Notes under the pieces: model-generated
What the model saw: only the letters and a program-made list of their open reading frames with translations
What the model was told of the DNA's origin: nothing
The model's database searches: none
Program-made: the position numbers and the translations under genes
From: Gemmatimonadota bacterium
GTDB lineage: Bacteria; Gemmatimonadota; Gemmatimonadetes; Longimicrobiales; Gaopeijiaceae
Reading direction: 5' to 3'
Length of the DNA stretch: 64,000 nucleotides
Assembly: GCA_009692205.1 (NCBI GenBank)
Contig: SHZR01000015.1
Span: 1-64,000, forward strand
Shown: piece after piece, positions 44,935 through 53,068 of the stretch
Position numbering within the stretch: position 1 is the stretch's first letter
Layout of the letters: every line of letters starts with the position of its first letter

Positions 44935-45030
44935 GGGTCGCGGAAAGTGTACCAGACCCGATGGCGCGGTCAACCGCGGTGCGACGGACCGGCGGGCGCG
45001 AACGCCGCCCGCAGGAGGACGCCCTTCGCG

Positions 45031-45483
45031 CTAGTTGATGCTGACGGTGACGGTGTCCGCGCCTGTCTCGCCCAGCGCGTCCGAGGCCGTGACGATGACG
45101 CGCACGGTGCCTGTGGAAGCCCCCGCCGGCACCAAGGTCCGCGTGACCGTCGTATCCTGCGGGACCGGTAGCGTGAACGGGATCTCCGTGAACGCAACGC
45201 TTCTACCCGTGAACACGCCCTTGAAGCTCACGTTTGTCACGCCGTCCGGCGCACTCACGTTCGCCGTCACCTGGACTGAGCCACCCACGGCAAGCGTGAG
45301 ATTGGCCTGCGGCGCGGTGATCTCCACCTCCGGCCCGAGGAGCCCCGAGAGGGCCCCGAGCCCCGTGAAGAGGTTGTCACCTGTGCACGCCGGCAGGGAC
45401 GCCTCGACCAGCACCGCGCCCGCGAGACGCAACCGCCTCCCGCGTCCCGGTCGCGCCGGACGCATCGCTTGGTAGGCTCTCAT
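45031..45483 (-). CDS. Secreted Ig-like domain protein, last gene of the pilin cluster
   Basis: This 150-aa protein has a basic N-terminus, a short hydrophobic run (LAGAVLVEASLPACTGDN) with a possible lipobox, and then one beta-sandwich of about 95 residues (EVEITAPQANLTLAVGGSVQ, VTANVSAPDGVTNVSFKGVF, VRVIVTASDALGETGADTVT). This is like the bacterial Ig-like folds in surface proteins. It starts 6 bp after the pilin-secretin fusion stop and should be co-translated. A role as a pilotin or a pilus-accessory lipoprotein is only a guess from position. Confidence 0.7.
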   Translation of the reverse strand: MRAYQAMRPARPGRGRRLRLAGAVLVEASLPACTGDNLFTGLGALSGLLGPEVEITAPQANLTLAVGGSVQVTANVSAPDGVTNVSFKGVFTGRSVAFTEIPFTLPVPQDTTVTRTLVPAGASTGTVRVIVTASDALGETGADTVTVSIN

Positions 45484-45489
45484 GGGTCC

Positions 45490-46419
45490 TCAGTTCGAGC
45501 GGACGATGTGCGGCGTGACCAGAATGATCAGGTCCTGCTGGATCGTTTGCTCCCGCACCACCCTGAAGAGCCGGCCGATCAGAGGGAGGTCCTGGAGAAG
45601 CGGGATCCCCGAACGCGCTTCCGTGCGCTCGGACTGCGTCAGGCCCGCGATCACTACCGTCTCGCCGTCCTGGACGAGCACGCGCGTCCGGGCATTCTGG
45701 GTCCGGAAGATGAATCCCGCGTCCGACGGCGCGAGCTCCGCCGCCGAGCGCTCGGCTTCGAGCTCGAGCAGGATGTGGCCGTCCGCGGTGACGTGAGGCG
45801 TCGTGGGCAGGATGACGCCGGTCTGTTGCTGTTCGACCTGCGCCGTCGGGAAGCCCGCGCCCGCGTCGATCGTACGGATCGGCGTGAGCTCACCGACGTG
45901 GATCCGTGCCTGCTGGTTGTCGAGCACCGTCACCTGGGGCGTCGCCTCGATGTCGCTGAGGTTGACCGAAGCCAAGGCGTCGATGAACCCGATGAGCTGG
46001 TGGCGTCCCACGACCAACGAGGTCAGGAGCTGGAGCATCGGCCCCGCCACGCGCGCCGTGGCATTCCCGAGGGCCGCGACCGAGTTGCCGCCGAGCGCGA
46101 CGACCGTTTCACCCTGCGCGATCGGGTCGAGCACGCCGTCGCCGTCCGTGTCCGAAAATCCCGAGGAGAGTGCGTTGAACTGGTTGCCGCGCGAGTCCTT
46201 GAGCTCGTACGTGACGCCGAACTCCTCGAGGTCTGTCCGGTTGACAAAATAGATGTCCTGGAGTGTCGCCAGATTCCTGAGGTCCGACTTCATGGAGGCA
46301 ATGAAGGCCTTCTCGCGCGTTTGCGAGAATTTCGGGATCGCGATGGCTGCCAAGACCCCGATGATGACCAGGACGATCAACAACTCGATCAGGGTGAAGC
46401 CTGCGCGCCGAACGATCAC
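45490..46419 (-). CDS. Chimeric protein: type IV pilin N-terminus fused to a secretin C-terminal domain
   Basis: The frame encodes 309 aa from a GTG at 46419 with GAGG six bases upstream; an ATG at 46461 is the longer alternative. Residues 1-7 form a short prepilin leader. Residues 8-62 are a full type IV pilin helix (FTLIELLIVLVIIGVLAAIA, Glu5 present), about 40 of 54 positions identical to the adjacent PilA. A linker with a calcium-loop-like DTDGDGVLD (90-98) follows. Residues about 128-309 are a complete secretin (PilQ/GspD) C-domain: PQVTVLDNQQARIHVGE, GVILPTTPHV, DGETVVIAGLTQSE, SGIPLLQDLPLIGRLF, and a DLIILVTPHIV end. The N0/N1 secretin domains are absent. A functional fusion and a relic of a pilin-pilQ deletion are both possible. 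Confidence 0.85.
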   Translation of the reverse strand: MIVRRAGFTLIELLIVLVIIGVLAAIAIPKFSQTREKAFIASMKSDLRNLATLQDIYFVNRTDLEEFGVTYELKDSRGNQFNALSSGFSDTDGDGVLDPIAQGETVVALGGNSVAALGNATARVAGPMLQLLTSLVVGRHQLIGFIDALASVNLSDIEATPQVTVLDNQQARIHVGELTPIRTIDAGAGFPTAQVEQQQTGVILPTTPHVTADGHILLELEAERSAAELAPSDAGFIFRTQNARTRVLVQDGETVVIAGLTQSERTEARSGIPLLQDLPLIGRLFRVVREQTIQQDLIILVTPHIVRSN

Positions 46420-46468
46420 CGTATACCTCGCCGCGAAGAGAGGCCGAGAAGGGGAATCCACCTAAGGT

Positions 46469-46502
46469 GGCGGCGCCCGGACCCACTCGGGCCCGGGCCG
46501 CC
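46469..46502. terminator. Stem-loop between pilA and the pilin-secretin fusion gene
   Basis: GGCGGCGCCCGG and CCGGGCCGCC pair over ten base pairs with a 2-base bulge and a 12-base loop, 57-90 bases after the pilA stop. It could reduce read-through into the fusion gene or stabilise the pilA message, which is commonly far more abundant than neighbouring transcripts. No T-run is present. Confidence 0.45.
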
Positions 46503-46558
46503 GGTACTTCACCGCTCACACCCGCATCGAGCGCGGGGCCCTAGACAACCGCATCACG

Positions 46559-46954
46559 TCACGGGGTGCAGGCGATCTCATTAGGTTGAGCCGGAGCCGT
46601 CGGCGAGGTCGGCGCCGTGGCCGTTCCGTAGTAGATCGCGCAGCCCCGGGTAGTGCCGAGCGCGGTGTGATAGGCGCTCGCGGCCCAACCCGTGGACGTC
46701 ACAGAAGTCAGCGTGACGTTGGAACCGTCGGAGTTGACGAACCCGAGGTCAACGATGTTGCTCGTGTACGAGTAGGTGTCGGAGTAGTAGATCTCCTGCT
46801 GGCTCGCGAGGTTCTTCAGGTCCGACTTCATCGCGGCGAAGTACGCCTTCTCACGCGTAGCCGAGAACTTCGGGATGGCGATGGCCGCCAAGATGCCGAT
46901 GATCACGACCACGATGAGGAGCTCAATCAGGGTAAAGCCCTTGTTGTTCCGCAT
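46559..46954 (-). CDS. pilA: Type IV major pilin-like protein PilA
   Basis: The prepilin has 131 aa from the ATG at 46954, with GGAG six bases upstream. The leader MRNNKG is short and ends at the cleavage point before FTLIELLIVVVIIGILAAIA with Glu5 of the mature protein. The globular part is small (about 75 residues) with SATREKAYFAAMKSDLKNLA, QQEIYYSDTYSYT and a cysteine pair (RGCAIYYG and the final ACTP) that may form the D-loop. The C-terminus is rich in Pro/Thr/Ala, as in O-glycosylated pilins. A -24/-12 promoter lies upstream, and PilSR genes are in the same cluster. Confidence 0.93.
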   Translation of the reverse strand: MRNNKGFTLIELLIVVVIIGILAAIAIPKFSATREKAYFAAMKSDLKNLASQQEIYYSDTYSYTSNIVDLGFVNSDGSNVTLTSVTSTGWAASAYHTALGTTRGCAIYYGTATAPTSPTAPAQPNEIACTP

Positions 46955-47003
46955 CTGGTGCTCCGGGTGTGAATGAATCTGAGGCCCGACGGGCCACAAT
47001 ACG

Positions 47004-47020
47004 GGCAAGGTAGGTTCCAC
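47004..47020 (-). promoter_or_regulatory. Sigma-54 (-24/-12) promoter of pilA
   Basis: On the minus strand TGGAACC-N4-TTGCC reads at 47019 to 47004, with GG and GC ten bases apart as in the consensus TGGCACG-N4-TTGCW. The predicted start is near 46993, giving a leader of about 40 bases with the GGAG site before ATG 46954. The upstream 140 bp are AT-rich (ATATATTACAGG) unlike the surroundings, as expected for activator and bending sites. PilR, a sigma-54 activator, is encoded 3 kb upstream. Confidence 0.75.
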
Positions 47021-47165
47021 AACGGAAGCAAATCCTATAAGACAATATATTACAGGTACTTACATAACAGAAGCACACGCCAGGACGAGCCCTTTGGGAG
47101 GGCCGGACTGTGGGATTCTGCAACTCTTTCCACGTTTTGCAGCAGTTCGCGGCGCCCATCAAACT

Positions 47166-49073
47166 TCATTTGTTTACGGCGACCGATGCCTGGGCCGAAT
47201 CCGCATGGAGCAGCGACGGAAGTCCGAATTCGGCCACTCTGACCGCATCGAGGGTCTGCCGTGAGAGCGCGCTCGACCTGCTCGCCCAAGCGGAGTCGAG
47301 CGCGGCGTACGCGCCGACCGAGTCGCCGGCTTCGCGGCGCTCGTACGCGAGGTACATCCACTGGGGCCAGAAGGACGCCTGCGCCATCTCCTCGGCTCGT
47401 CCGCGGGCCTGCCTCGCCTCGCCCCATCGCCCCTGCGCGGCAAGCGCCCACGCCAGCACGTAGTGCCGAGTGGGATCTCGGTCATAGACGGCGAGCGACA
47501 CGCGCGCGAAGCGCTCCGCGCCAACGGCATCTCCGTGCTGCGCACGGAGCCAGGACAGGATGCTTGGCGCGAGCGCGAAACGGGGCTGTGCCTGCCACGC
47601 AGACATGAGAAGGTTCTCCGCGGCTTGATACCGCTCGACCTCCATGAGCCGGTTGGCGACCTCGGTCACGAGCGCGTAGTGCCCGCCCAGGATATTGATC
47701 GCGGCACGGTAGGCGAAGAGCGCTTGGCTCGTGTTGCCGGCCTTCAGGAATTCGTCCCCCAGGATCCACTGCGATCGCCCGGAATGGGGCGCGTCCCGGA
47801 GCAGGGCGTTGAAAAACGTCTGATTGTCCTTCCAGTCCGGGGTGCGCGTCCATGTTCGAACGACCGAGAGGGAAAGCGCGAGGAACAGGAGGATCCAGGC
47901 TCCGCGGGGGCGCTCGCGCGAGAGCCTCACCACGAGCCACCCCGTCGCGGCCGCCAGCCCGACCGACGGCAAATAGAGCGTTCTCTCGGCGAGTACCACG
48001 CCGGAGAGGAACAGCGTGTTCGAGATCGGCGAGATCGCGATGACGAACCAGACTACGCCGAGCGCAGCGGCCCGCGAGCTGCTCGAGCCCGGCGACAGCT
48101 CCGGCCGCCGCCACGCGATCCACGCGGTGGCGAGGACCACGATCGCCATCACGGCACCCACGAGGTTGTCGACGCGCCAGGCCAGCGAAATCGGAATGAC
48201 GTTCGGTGAGTAGTCCGAGTAGAGGTCCAGCGGGAAGACCCAGAGTCGCACGTAATGCGTCCAGACCTCGCCGAGGGTCCAGATGCGCGGAATCTCGGCG
48301 AGCAGGTCGGCGCCGAGCGGTGCGAACGGATTCGCGATGCTGCCCAGAATCGTGTAGCGACCCATGAGCAGCGCCGCGGCGACGACCGACATGACCAAGT
48401 AGAGGCGCCAGCGCTCGCCGATGTACCGCGCGACATCGCCGAACGCGATCCGCTGGCGAGCCGCGTCGAGCAGGAAGATCAGACCCGGCAGCACCACGCC
48501 GCTCTCCTTCGCTCCGAACGCGACCGCGTAGAGCGCTCCGATCAGCAGCGCGAGCCCCCATCCCGACCGCGCCGGACCCCGCACGTGCACGAGGCACGCG
48601 AGCAGGATCGCCACGGCGGACAGGATCTCGCCCATCCCGATGACGTTGGAGACCGCCTCCACGTGCACCGGATGGATCGCGAAGACGAGGCCCGCCACGA
48701 GCGAGGCCGAGAGCGGCATCAGCGCAGCGCAGAGCAGGAGCACCAGGACGGACGCCGCCGCGTGGCCGAGGACGTTCGCGACGTGGAAGGCGATGGGCGA
48801 GCCGCCTCCGACCGCGTAGAGGAGGCCGAGCGTGCTGGTGGTCGCCGGCCGCCATAGGCCGAGCTCCCTACCGAAGTCGGTCGGCCAATACGGCGTGACG
48901 AGCGCACCGGGCAACGTCCCGAGGCTGTGGATCGCCTGGTTGTCGACCACGATGTGCACGTCGTCGTACGCGAATCCGTTCCGGAGCGAGTTCGCGTAGA
49001 CCAGCACAGCCAGGAGCCCGACGACGACGGCCGCGGTGCGGACGTCGCGTAAGGGCCATCCCAGCCGCGTCAC
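47166..49073 (-). CDS. GT-C type membrane glycosyltransferase with C-terminal TPR region (TMTC-like)
   Basis: This 635-aa protein from a GTG overlapping the GT2 stop (GTGA) has 10 or more hydrophobic helices in its first 430 residues. It includes the first-loop acidic motif GFAYDDVHIV (Asp37/38) of polyprenyl-phosphate-sugar dependent transferases, HPVHVEAVSNVIGMGEILSA and YPLVYSLAR-like later loops (for example VVLAERTLYLPSVG). The C-terminal 200 residues form TPR-like helix pairs (SQALFAYRAAINILGGHYAL, ALAAQGRWGEARQARGRAEE). The arrangement equals TMTC-type protein O-mannosyltransferases. With the adjacent GT2 it could glycosylate pilin; that is inferred from location. Confidence 0.82.
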   Translation of the reverse strand: MTRLGWPLRDVRTAAVVVGLLAVLVYANSLRNGFAYDDVHIVVDNQAIHSLGTLPGALVTPYWPTDFGRELGLWRPATTSTLGLLYAVGGGSPIAFHVANVLGHAAASVLVLLLCAALMPLSASLVAGLVFAIHPVHVEAVSNVIGMGEILSAVAILLACLVHVRGPARSGWGLALLIGALYAVAFGAKESGVVLPGLIFLLDAARQRIAFGDVARYIGERWRLYLVMSVVAAALLMGRYTILGSIANPFAPLGADLLAEIPRIWTLGEVWTHYVRLWVFPLDLYSDYSPNVIPISLAWRVDNLVGAVMAIVVLATAWIAWRRPELSPGSSSSRAAALGVVWFVIAISPISNTLFLSGVVLAERTLYLPSVGLAAATGWLVVRLSRERPRGAWILLFLALSLSVVRTWTRTPDWKDNQTFFNALLRDAPHSGRSQWILGDEFLKAGNTSQALFAYRAAINILGGHYALVTEVANRLMEVERYQAAENLLMSAWQAQPRFALAPSILSWLRAQHGDAVGAERFARVSLAVYDRDPTRHYVLAWALAAQGRWGEARQARGRAEEMAQASFWPQWMYLAYERREAGDSVGAYAALDSAWASRSSALSRQTLDAVRVAEFGLPSLLHADSAQASVAVNK

Positions 49074-49891
49074 GGAGTCCGTGGAGCGGTGGCGTCGATC
49101 CGCTCGGGCGTGTCCCAGGACGGGACCGAGGGAGGTGTCCACTTCGGCACGCTCGGCGGCAGCACGTTGTACTTCAAGATGCACCAGAACGCAGAGACGC
49201 CGTCCTTCCACCCAATCTTCTTCCCCTCCGCGTACGAGCGACCGTCGTAGCTGATGGGAAGCTCGTAGATGCGCGCGCCCGCCTGCGCGAGCCGCGCGGT
49301 CAGCTCGGGCTCGATGCCGAACCGATTGGCCGACAACGGCAGCGACTGGAGCAGCTCCCGCCGGACCATCTTGTAGCACGTCTCCATGTCGGTGAGGTTC
49401 ACGTCGGTGAGCATGTTCGACATGAGCGTGAGCACCCGATTGCCGACGGAGTGCCAGAAGAAGAGCACGCGGTGCGGCCCGCCGAGGAAGCGCGAGCCGT
49501 AGACGGCGTCGGCCTTCCCGCTGAGGATCGGCCGGAGCAGCAGGGGGAGCTCGTGCGGGTCGTACTCCATGTCGGCGTCCTGCACGACCACGACGTCGCC
49601 GGTCGCATGCGGGAATCCGGTGCGGAGCGCAGCGCCCTTGCCCGCGTTCTTCTCGTGCATGACCAGACGGTCGATGAGCGTCCCCTCGAGGCCAGGCAGG
49701 ATGTCGCGCGTGCCGTCCGTGGAGCCGTCGTCCACGACGATCACCTCGAGCTGGAGCGGCACCTCTCGAACGCGGCGCAGGAGCGCCTCGACAGTTCCGA
49801 CCTCGTTGTAGACCGGAATGACGACGGTGAGGCGCACCCGAGCCCACGGGAGCTCTTCGGTGGGCGGCGCGGCGGGAAGGGGGCTGCGCAT
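49070..49891 (-). CDS. Dpm1-like family 2 glycosyltransferase
   Basis: This 273-aa enzyme probably charges polyprenyl phosphate with a sugar from a nucleotide sugar. The GT-A fold has VVIPVYNEVGTVEALLRRV (22-40), IVVDDGSTDGTRDILPG with Asp54/55, EKNAGKGAALRTGF and QDADMEYDP (104-112, DxD). NLTDMETCYKMVRRELLQ and RFGIEPELTARLA follow, which are typical of the DPM1/ArnC-like family. There are no C-terminal membrane helices. The C-terminus repeats a short unit: PPSVPKWTPPSVPSW. It overlaps the membrane transferase gene by 4 bp and starts 8 bp after pilR. Confidence 0.88.
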   Translation of the reverse strand: MRSPLPAAPPTEELPWARVRLTVVIPVYNEVGTVEALLRRVREVPLQLEVIVVDDGSTDGTRDILPGLEGTLIDRLVMHEKNAGKGAALRTGFPHATGDVVVVQDADMEYDPHELPLLLRPILSGKADAVYGSRFLGGPHRVLFFWHSVGNRVLTLMSNMLTDVNLTDMETCYKMVRRELLQSLPLSANRFGIEPELTARLAQAGARIYELPISYDGRSYAEGKKIGWKDGVSAFWCILKYNVLPPSVPKWTPPSVPSWDTPERIDATAPRTP

Positions 49892-49898
49892 TTACTCG

Positions 49899-51257
49899 TT
49901 ACTCCGGGATGCTGTAACGGTTGAGCTTGCGATAGAGCGTCGAGGGATCGATGCCCAGCACCTCGGCCGCGCGCGTCTTGTTGCCGCCCTCGGCCTGGAG
50001 AACCCACTGGATGTAGGCGCGCTCCACGACTTCCATGGTCGGGTTCTGCGCCGTCTCCTCCGTCGCGAGCCGCGGCCGGGGCGCCTCACGCACGCGCTCG
50101 GGGAGCGCCTGCGGCCCGATGGTATCACCCGTGGCCAGGACCGCGGCGCGCTCGAGCGCGTTCTCCAGCTCGCGCACGTTCCCGGGCCAGTCGTAGCGGG
50201 TGAGGACCTCGAGCGTCTCCGGGGCCAGAACGGGCACGCGAGCCACGCCGCGAGCCGTCGCGAGCTTGTGGAGGAAGTAGTTCGCCAGCACCGGAACGTC
50301 TTCACGCCGCTCGCGCAGAGGAGGTAGGTGCAGCTGGATCACGTTGAGGCGGTAGTAGAGATCGCTGCGGAAGGCGCCGCGTGAGATCTCTTCCTCCAGG
50401 TCGCGGTTCGTCGCCGCGATGATGCGCACGTCCACCGACACGGCCTTCGTCGCGCCGACCGGGATGACTTCCCGCTCCTGCACCGCGCGCAGGAGCTTCA
50501 CCTGCGTCGATGGGCTCATCTCGCCGATCTCGTCGAGGAAGAACGTCCCACCGGCGGCCGCGACGAGGAGCCCGTCCTTGTCCCTCACCGCCCCGGTGAA
50601 GGAGCCCTTCACGTGGCCGAAGAGCTCGCTGTCGAGCAGACTGTCGGGGAGCGCGCCGCAGTTGATCGACAGGAACGCTCGCTCCGACCGATCCGACAGC
50701 TCGTGGATGTAGCGCGCGACCAACTCCTTGCCGGTGCCGCTCTCTCCCGAGATGAGCACCGTCGAGCCCGTCGCCGCCACGGTCTCGACGAGCGCCAAGA
50801 CCTCCACGAAGCGCGGCGCGGCGCCCACTGGCCTGCGTGCGTCCACCTGGCCGCGCCGGCGGATCTCCTTTCTGAGCTGCCGGTTCTCGACTTTGAGCTG
50901 GCGGGCTTCTGCGGCGCGCCGACAGATGGCGAGCAGTTCGTCGTTGGCGAACGGCTTCTGGAGGTAGTAGTACGCGCCCTCGTTCACCGCCCGCACCGCC
51001 GTCTGGAGCGAGGCCTGCGCGGTCATCAGGATCACCGGCATCTCGGGATCGATCTGGCGCGCCGCGGACAGCACGTCGAGGCCGCCCGCGCCCGGCATGC
51101 GGACATCGGTCAGCACGAGATCAGGCTTCTCGTCTTCCAACGCCGCGAGCGCCTTCGGGCCCGAGTCGGCCACCGTGACCTCGTATCCCTCGCCGCGGAA
51201 GAGGATCTGGAGCGTCTCGAGGATGGCCTGCTCATCGTCGACCAAGAGGATCTTCAT
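49899..51257 (-). CDS. pilR: PilR-type NtrC-family response regulator
   Basis: This 452-aa regulator starts MKILLVDDEQAILETLQILF. The receiver domain has Asp7/8, the phospho-acceptor Asp51 (LVLTDVRMPGAGGL) and Lys101 (YLQKPF), so it should be phosphorylated. The AAA+ domain carries ISGESGTGKELVARYIHELS, GHVKGSFTGAVRDKDG (sigma-54 contact loop) and GGTFFLDEIGEMSP. The C-terminal Fis-type HTH is NKTRAAEVLGIDPSTLYRKL. Its ATG overlaps the sensor kinase stop (ATGA). The pilA promoter in this cluster is of the matching class. Confidence 0.9.
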   Translation of the reverse strand: MKILLVDDEQAILETLQILFRGEGYEVTVADSGPKALAALEDEKPDLVLTDVRMPGAGGLDVLSAARQIDPEMPVILMTAQASLQTAVRAVNEGAYYYLQKPFANDELLAICRRAAEARQLKVENRQLRKEIRRRGQVDARRPVGAAPRFVEVLALVETVAATGSTVLISGESGTGKELVARYIHELSDRSERAFLSINCGALPDSLLDSELFGHVKGSFTGAVRDKDGLLVAAAGGTFFLDEIGEMSPSTQVKLLRAVQEREVIPVGATKAVSVDVRIIAATNRDLEEEISRGAFRSDLYYRLNVIQLHLPPLRERREDVPVLANYFLHKLATARGVARVPVLAPETLEVLTRYDWPGNVRELENALERAAVLATGDTIGPQALPERVREAPRPRLATEETAQNPTMEVVERAYIQWVLQAEGGNKTRAAEVLGIDPSTLYRKLNRYSIPE

Positions 51258-52942
51258 GTCCCCACCCCCGCGCCGGCCGTCACGCTCTCCGGCGAGCCCG
51301 GCAAGAAGATCACGAACTGAGCGCCTCCATCCGGCCCCTTCTCCACGAACGTCGCGCCTTGATGCGCCTCTACGGCGCGGTGCACGACCGCCAGACCGAG
51401 CCCGCTCCCCTTGGGCTTGGTGGTGAAGAACGGATCGAAGATGCGCCCGCGGACCTCCGGCCGGATGCCCTCGCCACTGTCGGCCACGGTGAGTCGGACC
51501 GGATGGTCGATGTCCGTGCCGCGCGGCCGCGGATGGTCCTTCTCGTCGGCCAGCGAGACGGTCACGCGTCCGCCCGGACCGGCCGACTGCGCGCCGTTCA
51601 GCACCAGATTGAAGAGCGCCCGGTGTAGTAGGTCCGCGTCGCCGACCACGTGGATCGGGCCTGGGTCCAATTGGGAGACGATGTCGACGCCGGCGGCGTC
51701 CGGGTGCTGCTTCGCGACGATCAGACACCCGCGCACGACGGCGTGCAAGTCGATCTCGTCCCGCGCGCTCATCTTCAAGCCGGAAAACTCGAGAAACTCC
51801 GAGAGCAGACGACTCAGTCGGTCCGACTCGGTCAGCACCAGTCGCTCCAGGATCGCGCGGTCACTCGGCGAGACCCGCCCCGCCGAAAGCTGCTCCACGG
51901 CGCTCCGGATCGACGCCAGCGGGTTCTTGATCTCGTGGGCGAGCGACGCGGAGAGCGCTGCCACGGCCTCCAGTCGCTCCGCGCGCACGTTCATCTCTTC
52001 GAGTCGCTCGCTGTCCGTGATGTCCTGGAAGAGCGCGGTCACCGACGGCGGCTCGCCCTCGCCTCGCTCCAGCACCGCGGTACTGACGCCGAGCTGCACG
52101 TTGCCGTGCTTCGTGACGGCCTGTGCCTGCGCGCGCGCGACCGAACGGCGGCTTCGGATGGCGCGCTCGAGAATGCCCCTCATTCCGGGCGCGATCCGTT
52201 CCAGCTCGGAAAGGATCGGTTGGCCGACCCGTCCCTGCATGTCCGCACCAAGCAATTTATCCGCCGCGGGATTGGCGTAAGCGAGCTGCCCCTCCCCGGT
52301 AACCGTGATGACTCCCGTGGACAAGTTGGCCAGGATGTCCCCGGTGTCGAGGCGGAGCTGCTGCAGCTGCGACGCTACGGCACCAAGCGCCTGGCCCGCG
52401 CGCCGTACCCGGTCGCCGACGTAGCCGGTAATGACCGCGACCACCGAGAACAGGCCAATACTGAGGGCGACATCGCGGGTGAACGACCCCTGATGCCCCC
52501 AGGCCAGATCCGCGAAGTAGAGGACGCTCGCCAGCGCTCCGATCAGTACGCCGCCCGGGAGGGGCAGGAGAAGCGCGCCCGCGCTGATGACGAGGATGTA
52601 CACCGACGCGAACCCGCTCGCCGGCCCCCCCGTCACGTGCACGATGCCCGTCACCAGGAAGGCGTCCAGGATGACTTGGGCATAGGTGAAGTTCCGGCTC
52701 GGCTCCCGCGCCAGCACGTGCGTGCGCCAGAAGGAAGGAGCGGTGACGGAGACGGCGACCAGGAACATCACGACCACGATCTGCGTGTCTTGGCTGCGCG
52801 CCTCGGACCAAACGGAGAGCGCGCCTAGGAGGATCCCCGTGATGAGCGTAAGCCGCCCAACGTAGAGCCAGCGCAGGAGGTTCCGGCCTAGGGGTAGCTC
52901 CGGGGACGGGGCGGATGGTCCCGCGTGGATCAGCTCGGCCAC
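51254..52942 (-). CDS. pilS: PilS-type sensor histidine kinase
   Basis: This 562-aa kinase has a membrane domain of about six helices in the first 185 residues (LLRWLYVGRLTLITGILLGA and following), as in PilS. A PAS domain runs about 205-315 (ILANLSTGVITVTGEGQLAY). The dimerisation domain carries the phospho-acceptor His336 (ASLAHEIKNPLASIRSAVEQ). The HATPase domain holds RALFNLVLNGAQSAGPGG, VADSGEGI, and FFTTKPKGSGLGLAVV. It is the first gene of the pil transcription unit and 126 bp downstream of the LysM gene. Confidence 0.9.
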   Translation of the reverse strand: MAELIHAGPSAPSPELPLGRNLLRWLYVGRLTLITGILLGALSVWSEARSQDTQIVVVMFLVAVSVTAPSFWRTHVLAREPSRNFTYAQVILDAFLVTGIVHVTGGPASGFASVYILVISAGALLLPLPGGVLIGALASVLYFADLAWGHQGSFTRDVALSIGLFSVVAVITGYVGDRVRRAGQALGAVASQLQQLRLDTGDILANLSTGVITVTGEGQLAYANPAADKLLGADMQGRVGQPILSELERIAPGMRGILERAIRSRRSVARAQAQAVTKHGNVQLGVSTAVLERGEGEPPSVTALFQDITDSERLEEMNVRAERLEAVAALSASLAHEIKNPLASIRSAVEQLSAGRVSPSDRAILERLVLTESDRLSRLLSEFLEFSGLKMSARDEIDLHAVVRGCLIVAKQHPDAAGVDIVSQLDPGPIHVVGDADLLHRALFNLVLNGAQSAGPGGRVTVSLADEKDHPRPRGTDIDHPVRLTVADSGEGIRPEVRGRIFDPFFTTKPKGSGLGLAVVHRAVEAHQGATFVEKGPDGGAQFVIFLPGSPESVTAGAGVGT

Positions 52943-53068
52943 GGTCCTCCCTGGAGGCGGCGGACGGTCACTCCACCCTTACGCCTTCGTTTTCGCAAGA
53001 TGCGAAGACCCCGTTCTGGTAGACTGCAAGGCAGGGCGCCGGGCGAGCGCGCCCAAGCGCCTCGGTGC

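Follow-up and report, generated by a model that had tools for sequence, protein, structure and literature searches.

The window analysed here is the 64,000-nucleotide stretch that opens contig SHZR01000015.1 of a Gemmatimonadota bacterium, the genome called G000 in our comparison of 39 genomes. All features described below lie on its minus strand. pilA (46559..46954), the gene for the major pilin of a type IVa pilus, encodes 131 amino acids and has a GGAG ribosome-binding site at 46961-46964. Further upstream are pilR (49899..51257) and pilS (51254..52942), which agrees with the claim of the first-pass annotation that a sensor kinase and its regulator are encoded 3-6 kb upstream of pilA in the same orientation. 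PilS combines a PilS-type membrane domain with PAS, HisKA and HATPase domains, the last two forming a kinase core. PilR has a receiver, an AAA+ domain with a GAFTGA-type loop in its GSFTGA variant, as had also been claimed, and a Fis-type HTH. The loop reads GSFTGA in 23 of 30 PilR loci and GAFTGA in the other seven. The earlier reading had been made conditional on rpoN; the gene is present and complete, with AID, CBD and DBD domains, and an RpoN match was found in 38/39 genomes.

Two genes (47166-49891) separate pilR from pilA. One encodes a family-2 glycosyltransferase of the polyprenyl-phosphate sugar synthase type, and the other a membrane protein with TPR repeats, presumably similar to TPR-type mannosyltransferases, that is found in several copies beside pilA in some relatives. 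One idea is that these two proteins could glycosylate the pilin. The first gene after pilA (45490..46461; likely start GTG 46419) is a pilin start joined in frame to the secretin domain of PilQ.

The −24/−12 element of pilA

The element TGGAACCTACCTTGCC (47004..47019, read 5ʹ to 3ʹ from 47019 to 47004) lies within the 211 nt that separate pilA from the stop of the preceding gene (47166). The T of its TGG is 65 nt upstream of the pilA ATG (46954). The gap between the −24 GG and the −12 GC is exactly 10 nt, and the element matches 9 of the 12 scored positions of the consensus TGGCACG-N4-TTGCW, as quoted in PMC2725144. Its sequence, position and exact −24/−12 spacing are as the first-pass annotation gave them, with the element on the minus strand.

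Transcription from a σ54 promoter starts 12 nt downstream of the −12 C, which for pilA would be position 46993; this start is expected from geometry. An AT-rich proximal block (47037..47063) contains single conserved columns (−42, −36, −35, −27 and −21). A second palindrome suspected there by eye was rejected, as most rows lack a good repeat and only single columns are conserved. A hairpin in the pilA leader was also rejected, since folding was no better than in shuffled sequences (z 0.58).

A match to the consensus proves nothing by itself. In the window, 3.7 occurrences of TGG-N8-TTGC are expected and 7 are found, a count that 8 of 100 shuffles reach. Across the genome, TGGNACN5TTGC has 11 matches and its reversed control 14, with no excess; hence, we do not use genome-wide pattern scoring as evidence. 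Several of the 11 matches (L071, L075, L077 and L078) are 54-150 nt before possible gene starts, and these are candidates for further RpoN promoters. With pattern counts at background, the pilA element could itself be a chance match, with pilA read from another promoter. We regard this as very improbable, because the site, its spacing and, as described below, its distance from an enhancer are conserved, and because no σ70-like promoter was found in 45000-53000.

It is conservation that gives the site its significance. A GG-N10-GC element scoring at least 8/12 is found at an offset of 50-110 in 22 of 23 related pilA upstream regions, and one scoring at least 7 is found 50-110 nt before pilA in all 23; these regions come from related genomes in three families and are not 23 independent events. 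At random places in related loci (n=12,000), the rate of a site scoring at least 8 is 0.065. GG-GC gaps of 9 and 11 each reach a score of 8 in just 1/23. The second tandem pilin served as an internal control: in the first two families it has no score-8 site at the 50-110 offset in any of 16 genomes. G024 and G038, which have multi-pilin arrays, are not counted among the 16; other pilin copies in the G024 array do show score-8 sites.

pilA loci were recovered from 30/39 genomes, and 23 were used in the promoter count. G004 and G009 served as a contrast set instead. Five more were left out: G015, with a 53% pilin and its only site at 150 nt; G016, where the contig begins within pilA; G001, whose pilin is divergent; G012, in which no start was clear; and G033, where the match is another pilin close to the edge of a contig. 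In tandem or array loci the first-type pilin was chosen, which is not always the best match.

A candidate enhancer and its regulator

The first-pass annotation missed a second conserved feature upstream of the promoter. In the window it takes the form of the inverted repeat TGGAA-N4-TTGCA, continued by GAATCCCACA (TGGAAAGAGTTGCAGAATCCCACA, 47132..47109). Counted from the T of TGG, its TTGCA arm begins 104 nt upstream, and a further TGCAA copy (47137..47141), with similar copies in some relatives, lies 18 nt upstream of that arm. A T(T/C)GCA-N-(A/T)(A/T) block is found at −103 to −107 from −24 in 18/23 upstream regions, and at exactly −104 in 12 (2,000 shuffles: mean 0.06, maximum 2). Together with its upstream arm, the block forms TGCAA-N4..7-TTGCA, with at least 9/10 matches in 15/23 (200 shuffles: mean 0.38, maximum 4). 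In the remaining five genomes, the repeat is at −114 (G023), −117 (G029), −90 (G038) and −91 (G024), and G020 has a variant at −106. Half-site and site occur together 18 times across the fetched loci and 17 of these occurrences are at pilins, although pilins and PilR had guided the choice of loci.

In the 18 genomes compared, the half-site is 81% identical, a value that is partly circular since rows were picked by a pattern, and the promoter core is 90% identical; the stretch between them averages 31%. The ATG lies at a distance of between 65 and 103 from −24. A rigid distance from enhancer to −24, combined with a variable distance from −24 to the ATG, fits the expected look of an NtrC-type activator site. 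The whole arrangement, with the enhancer, the promoter and the fixed spacing between them, is conserved across three families of the order. At the level of sequence, the locus has a candidate upstream activator site of a σ54 promoter, and the TGCAA-N5-TTGCA repeat is the likely PilR enhancer. The view that pilA has a σ54 promoter is thus supported by the conserved site, an RpoN in the genome, PilS and PilR encoded upstream, and a conserved candidate enhancer.

Is the regulator that acts here PilR? σ54-dependent transcription of pilA could instead be driven by another NtrC-type protein. The window genome has 26 PilR-like matches, and many relatives have a second kinase and NtrC-type pair just past the tandem pilins (L036, L037, L038, L040, L041, L049 and L050). 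However, the second pair is not at the locus in G000 or in G003, and both keep the site and the half-site.

Two loci that have lost pilSR are informative. In G004 (same genus) and G009 (same family), sod, lysM, pilA, aroC, aroK and topA follow in order, and pilS, pilR and pilMNOPQ are absent at that locus. The best PilR-like matches in these genomes are 42% (G004) and 44% (G009) identical, and both genomes retain RpoN. Neither has GG-N10-GC within 20-200 nt of pilA, or TTGCA/TGCAA in the 300 nt before it. G009 has one GG-N10-GC element, of score 6, at 256. At offset 66, where G002 has its site, G004 carries TGGAGAATTGTTTTGCC, a GG-N11-GC element whose spacing has changed by 1 nt. In the compared loci, the site and the regulator are kept together and lost together, and from this co-loss we infer control of pilA by PilSR. 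The loss of both elements from two syntenic loci without pilSR also counts against another regulator, which we consider unlikely. An observation on the other side is G006, which retains the site although no PilR match in it is close; this assembly is in 830 pieces, and the contig with pilA measures 5.6 kb. The pilins of G004, G006 and G009 are 64-79% identical to the window PilA, and those of G004 and G009 have open frames and the prepilin motif.

Probable loss of the pilus machine

In G003, G001 and G002, all of the same genus, pilMNOPQ precede aroC. When the pilM-Q DNA of G003 was searched against the window genome, only the PilQ end was found, and PilM, PilN, PilO and PilP were missing. The window genome has no match to PilO, and none to T2SSF, the domain of the platform protein PilC. 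Four T2SSE genes pass the cut-off in this genome. They are 37-45% identical to the canonical PilB/PilT of four relatives, with one degenerate copy at 27%, while the canonical PilB and PilT of those relatives are 67-85% identical among themselves. Canonical PilB and PilT are therefore absent from the assembly, and the T2SSE genes are distant paralogues. One T2SSE-type ATPase gene (L056, G000:C15:72706-73833) has in-frame stops and is possibly a pseudogene.

PilO is missing from 6 of the 39 genomes and T2SSF likewise from 6; G000, G004, G006, G009 and G018 have neither. Against the reading of a loss, the only T2SSF gene of G003 is inside a type II secretion-like cluster, and G002 has only a match below the cut-off. 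Hence, recovery of a pilus-type PilC may be difficult in this genus, or the gene may have been lost earlier. We think it probable that the pilus machine has been lost in the lineage of the window genome. The claim of the first-pass annotation that the regulatory loop is complete in cis thus holds for the regulation, but most of the machinery that would normally be its output is absent from the genome.

The gene downstream of pilA indicates how the local part of this loss could have occurred. It encodes pilin to about codon 72, followed by the PilQ secretin; the change-over is at codons 70-73, with the junction at about 46243-46250. It is the only secretin match in the window genome, which has no full-length PilQ, and no other such fusion is present among 3 loci found in a search of genome contigs. 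A deletion at the locus would have removed pilMNOP and the N-terminal half of PilQ, leaving the pilin-secretin fusion.

Decay of the fusion was considered, and a relative-rate test came out against it. The secretin half has 6 unique changes on the G000 branch versus 23 on the G003 branch with G001 as the outgroup, and 8 versus 17 with G002 as the outgroup. The secretin domain of G003 has thus changed faster than that of the fusion, which shows no decay in this lineage. An undecayed secretin half fits a deletion that happened very recently, or an error in the assembly.

An assembly error would give a different picture: the promoter would be real and the machine still present, the pilMNOPQ deletion would be a misjoin, pilBTC would lie in missing sequence, and the cells would make ordinary pili. 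Besides the undecayed secretin half, this is favoured by the metagenome-type assembly, which is in 61 contigs, and by the presence of PilO in G001, G002 and G003. However, pilin and PilQ share only a few bases at the junction, too few for a repeat to mislead an assembler, and none of the other contigs contains the missing segment. Moreover, a genome that is 97.9% complete lacks several genes at once that belong to separate places, and in G004 and G009 similar losses lie within contigs. We therefore judge a misjoin improbable, though a less remote prospect than control by another regulator.

A pilin circuit probably without its machine

The gene absences and the fusion junction can be read directly in the assembly. 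The explanation that we consider probable as a whole is that a conserved σ54/PilSR unit at pilA has outlived the type IV pilus machine. RNA polymerase with RpoN would read the −24/−12 promoter of pilA. PilS would switch PilR, which would bind TGCAA-N5-TTGCA about 108 nt upstream of −24; the intervening DNA would loop, and the GSFTGA loop of PilR would remodel the polymerase. We infer the PilR binding, the looping, the transcription start and the reality of the deletion in the cell.

What would such a circuit make? With the machine genes absent, its product is most likely a pilin that does not go into an ordinary pilus. Either the circuit has been recently orphaned, or the pilin serves some separate purpose. 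As a promoter it is of an ordinary kind. What is unusual, as far as metagenome assemblies show, is that it persists where the machine is missing, and that two relatives have a lone pilA. The dN/dS of pilA says little about selection: it is 0.35 versus G003 at a low dS (0.33), and synonymous sites are saturated versus G004. The synonymous divergence of pilA between G000 and G003 (0.33; L033) is less than half that of pilR (0.78) and aroC (0.77), for which codon bias or exchange between species are alternative explanations.

A more tentative proposal, which we think possible but less likely than not, is that PilA of this clade has a function independent of pili. The σ54/PilSR unit would then be kept in the window genome to express an unassembled pilin, the fusion, whose secretin half shows no relaxed evolution, may be a functional by-product and not debris, and pilA would have been kept alone in the two relatives after loss of pilSR, pilMNOPQ and the σ54 site. 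In both relatives, the lone pilA is still in place between its old neighbours.

In a limited search of open-access literature, neither this enhancer nor the retention of pilA in the absence of a pilus machine turned up for Gemmatimonadota. For a PilR of a phylum in which few species have been cultured, our analysis maps enhancer and promoter precisely and in a form that can be tested. It also describes a natural series, from a full locus to a machine-less locus to a pilin-only locus, in which promoter decay accompanies loss of the regulator. If pilA is truly kept without the machine, pilins act in the cell envelope beyond the building of pili.

The closest comparisons are with three known systems. 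The Geobacter sulfurreducens PilR/RpoN system (PMC2725144) is alike in having an enhancer-binding protein gene, pilR, near pilA and an RpoN-type element before pilA, which in that species was mapped by 5ʹ-RACE. It differs in that pilR is immediately upstream of pilA and a pilus system is present, whereas here two genes intervene and the machine is missing. PilSR of Pseudomonas aeruginosa (PMC6058289) shares the PilS-type membrane domain and the action of PilR with σ54 at pilA, but P. aeruginosa builds pili, unlike the state predicted here. Pseudomonas PilS contacts PilA directly (PMC6058289). Speculatively, if this contact holds here, unassembled PilA, and perhaps the fusion, whose N-terminal helix is similar to that of PilA, would hold the circuit low. 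Legionella pneumophila also still builds pili, unlike the predicted state of the window genome, but its PilA2 has an iron-related role that is independent of piliation (PMC13170364). PilA2 thus sets a precedent, being a type IV pilin with a function for which PilT, PilD and PilS/PilR are all dispensable.
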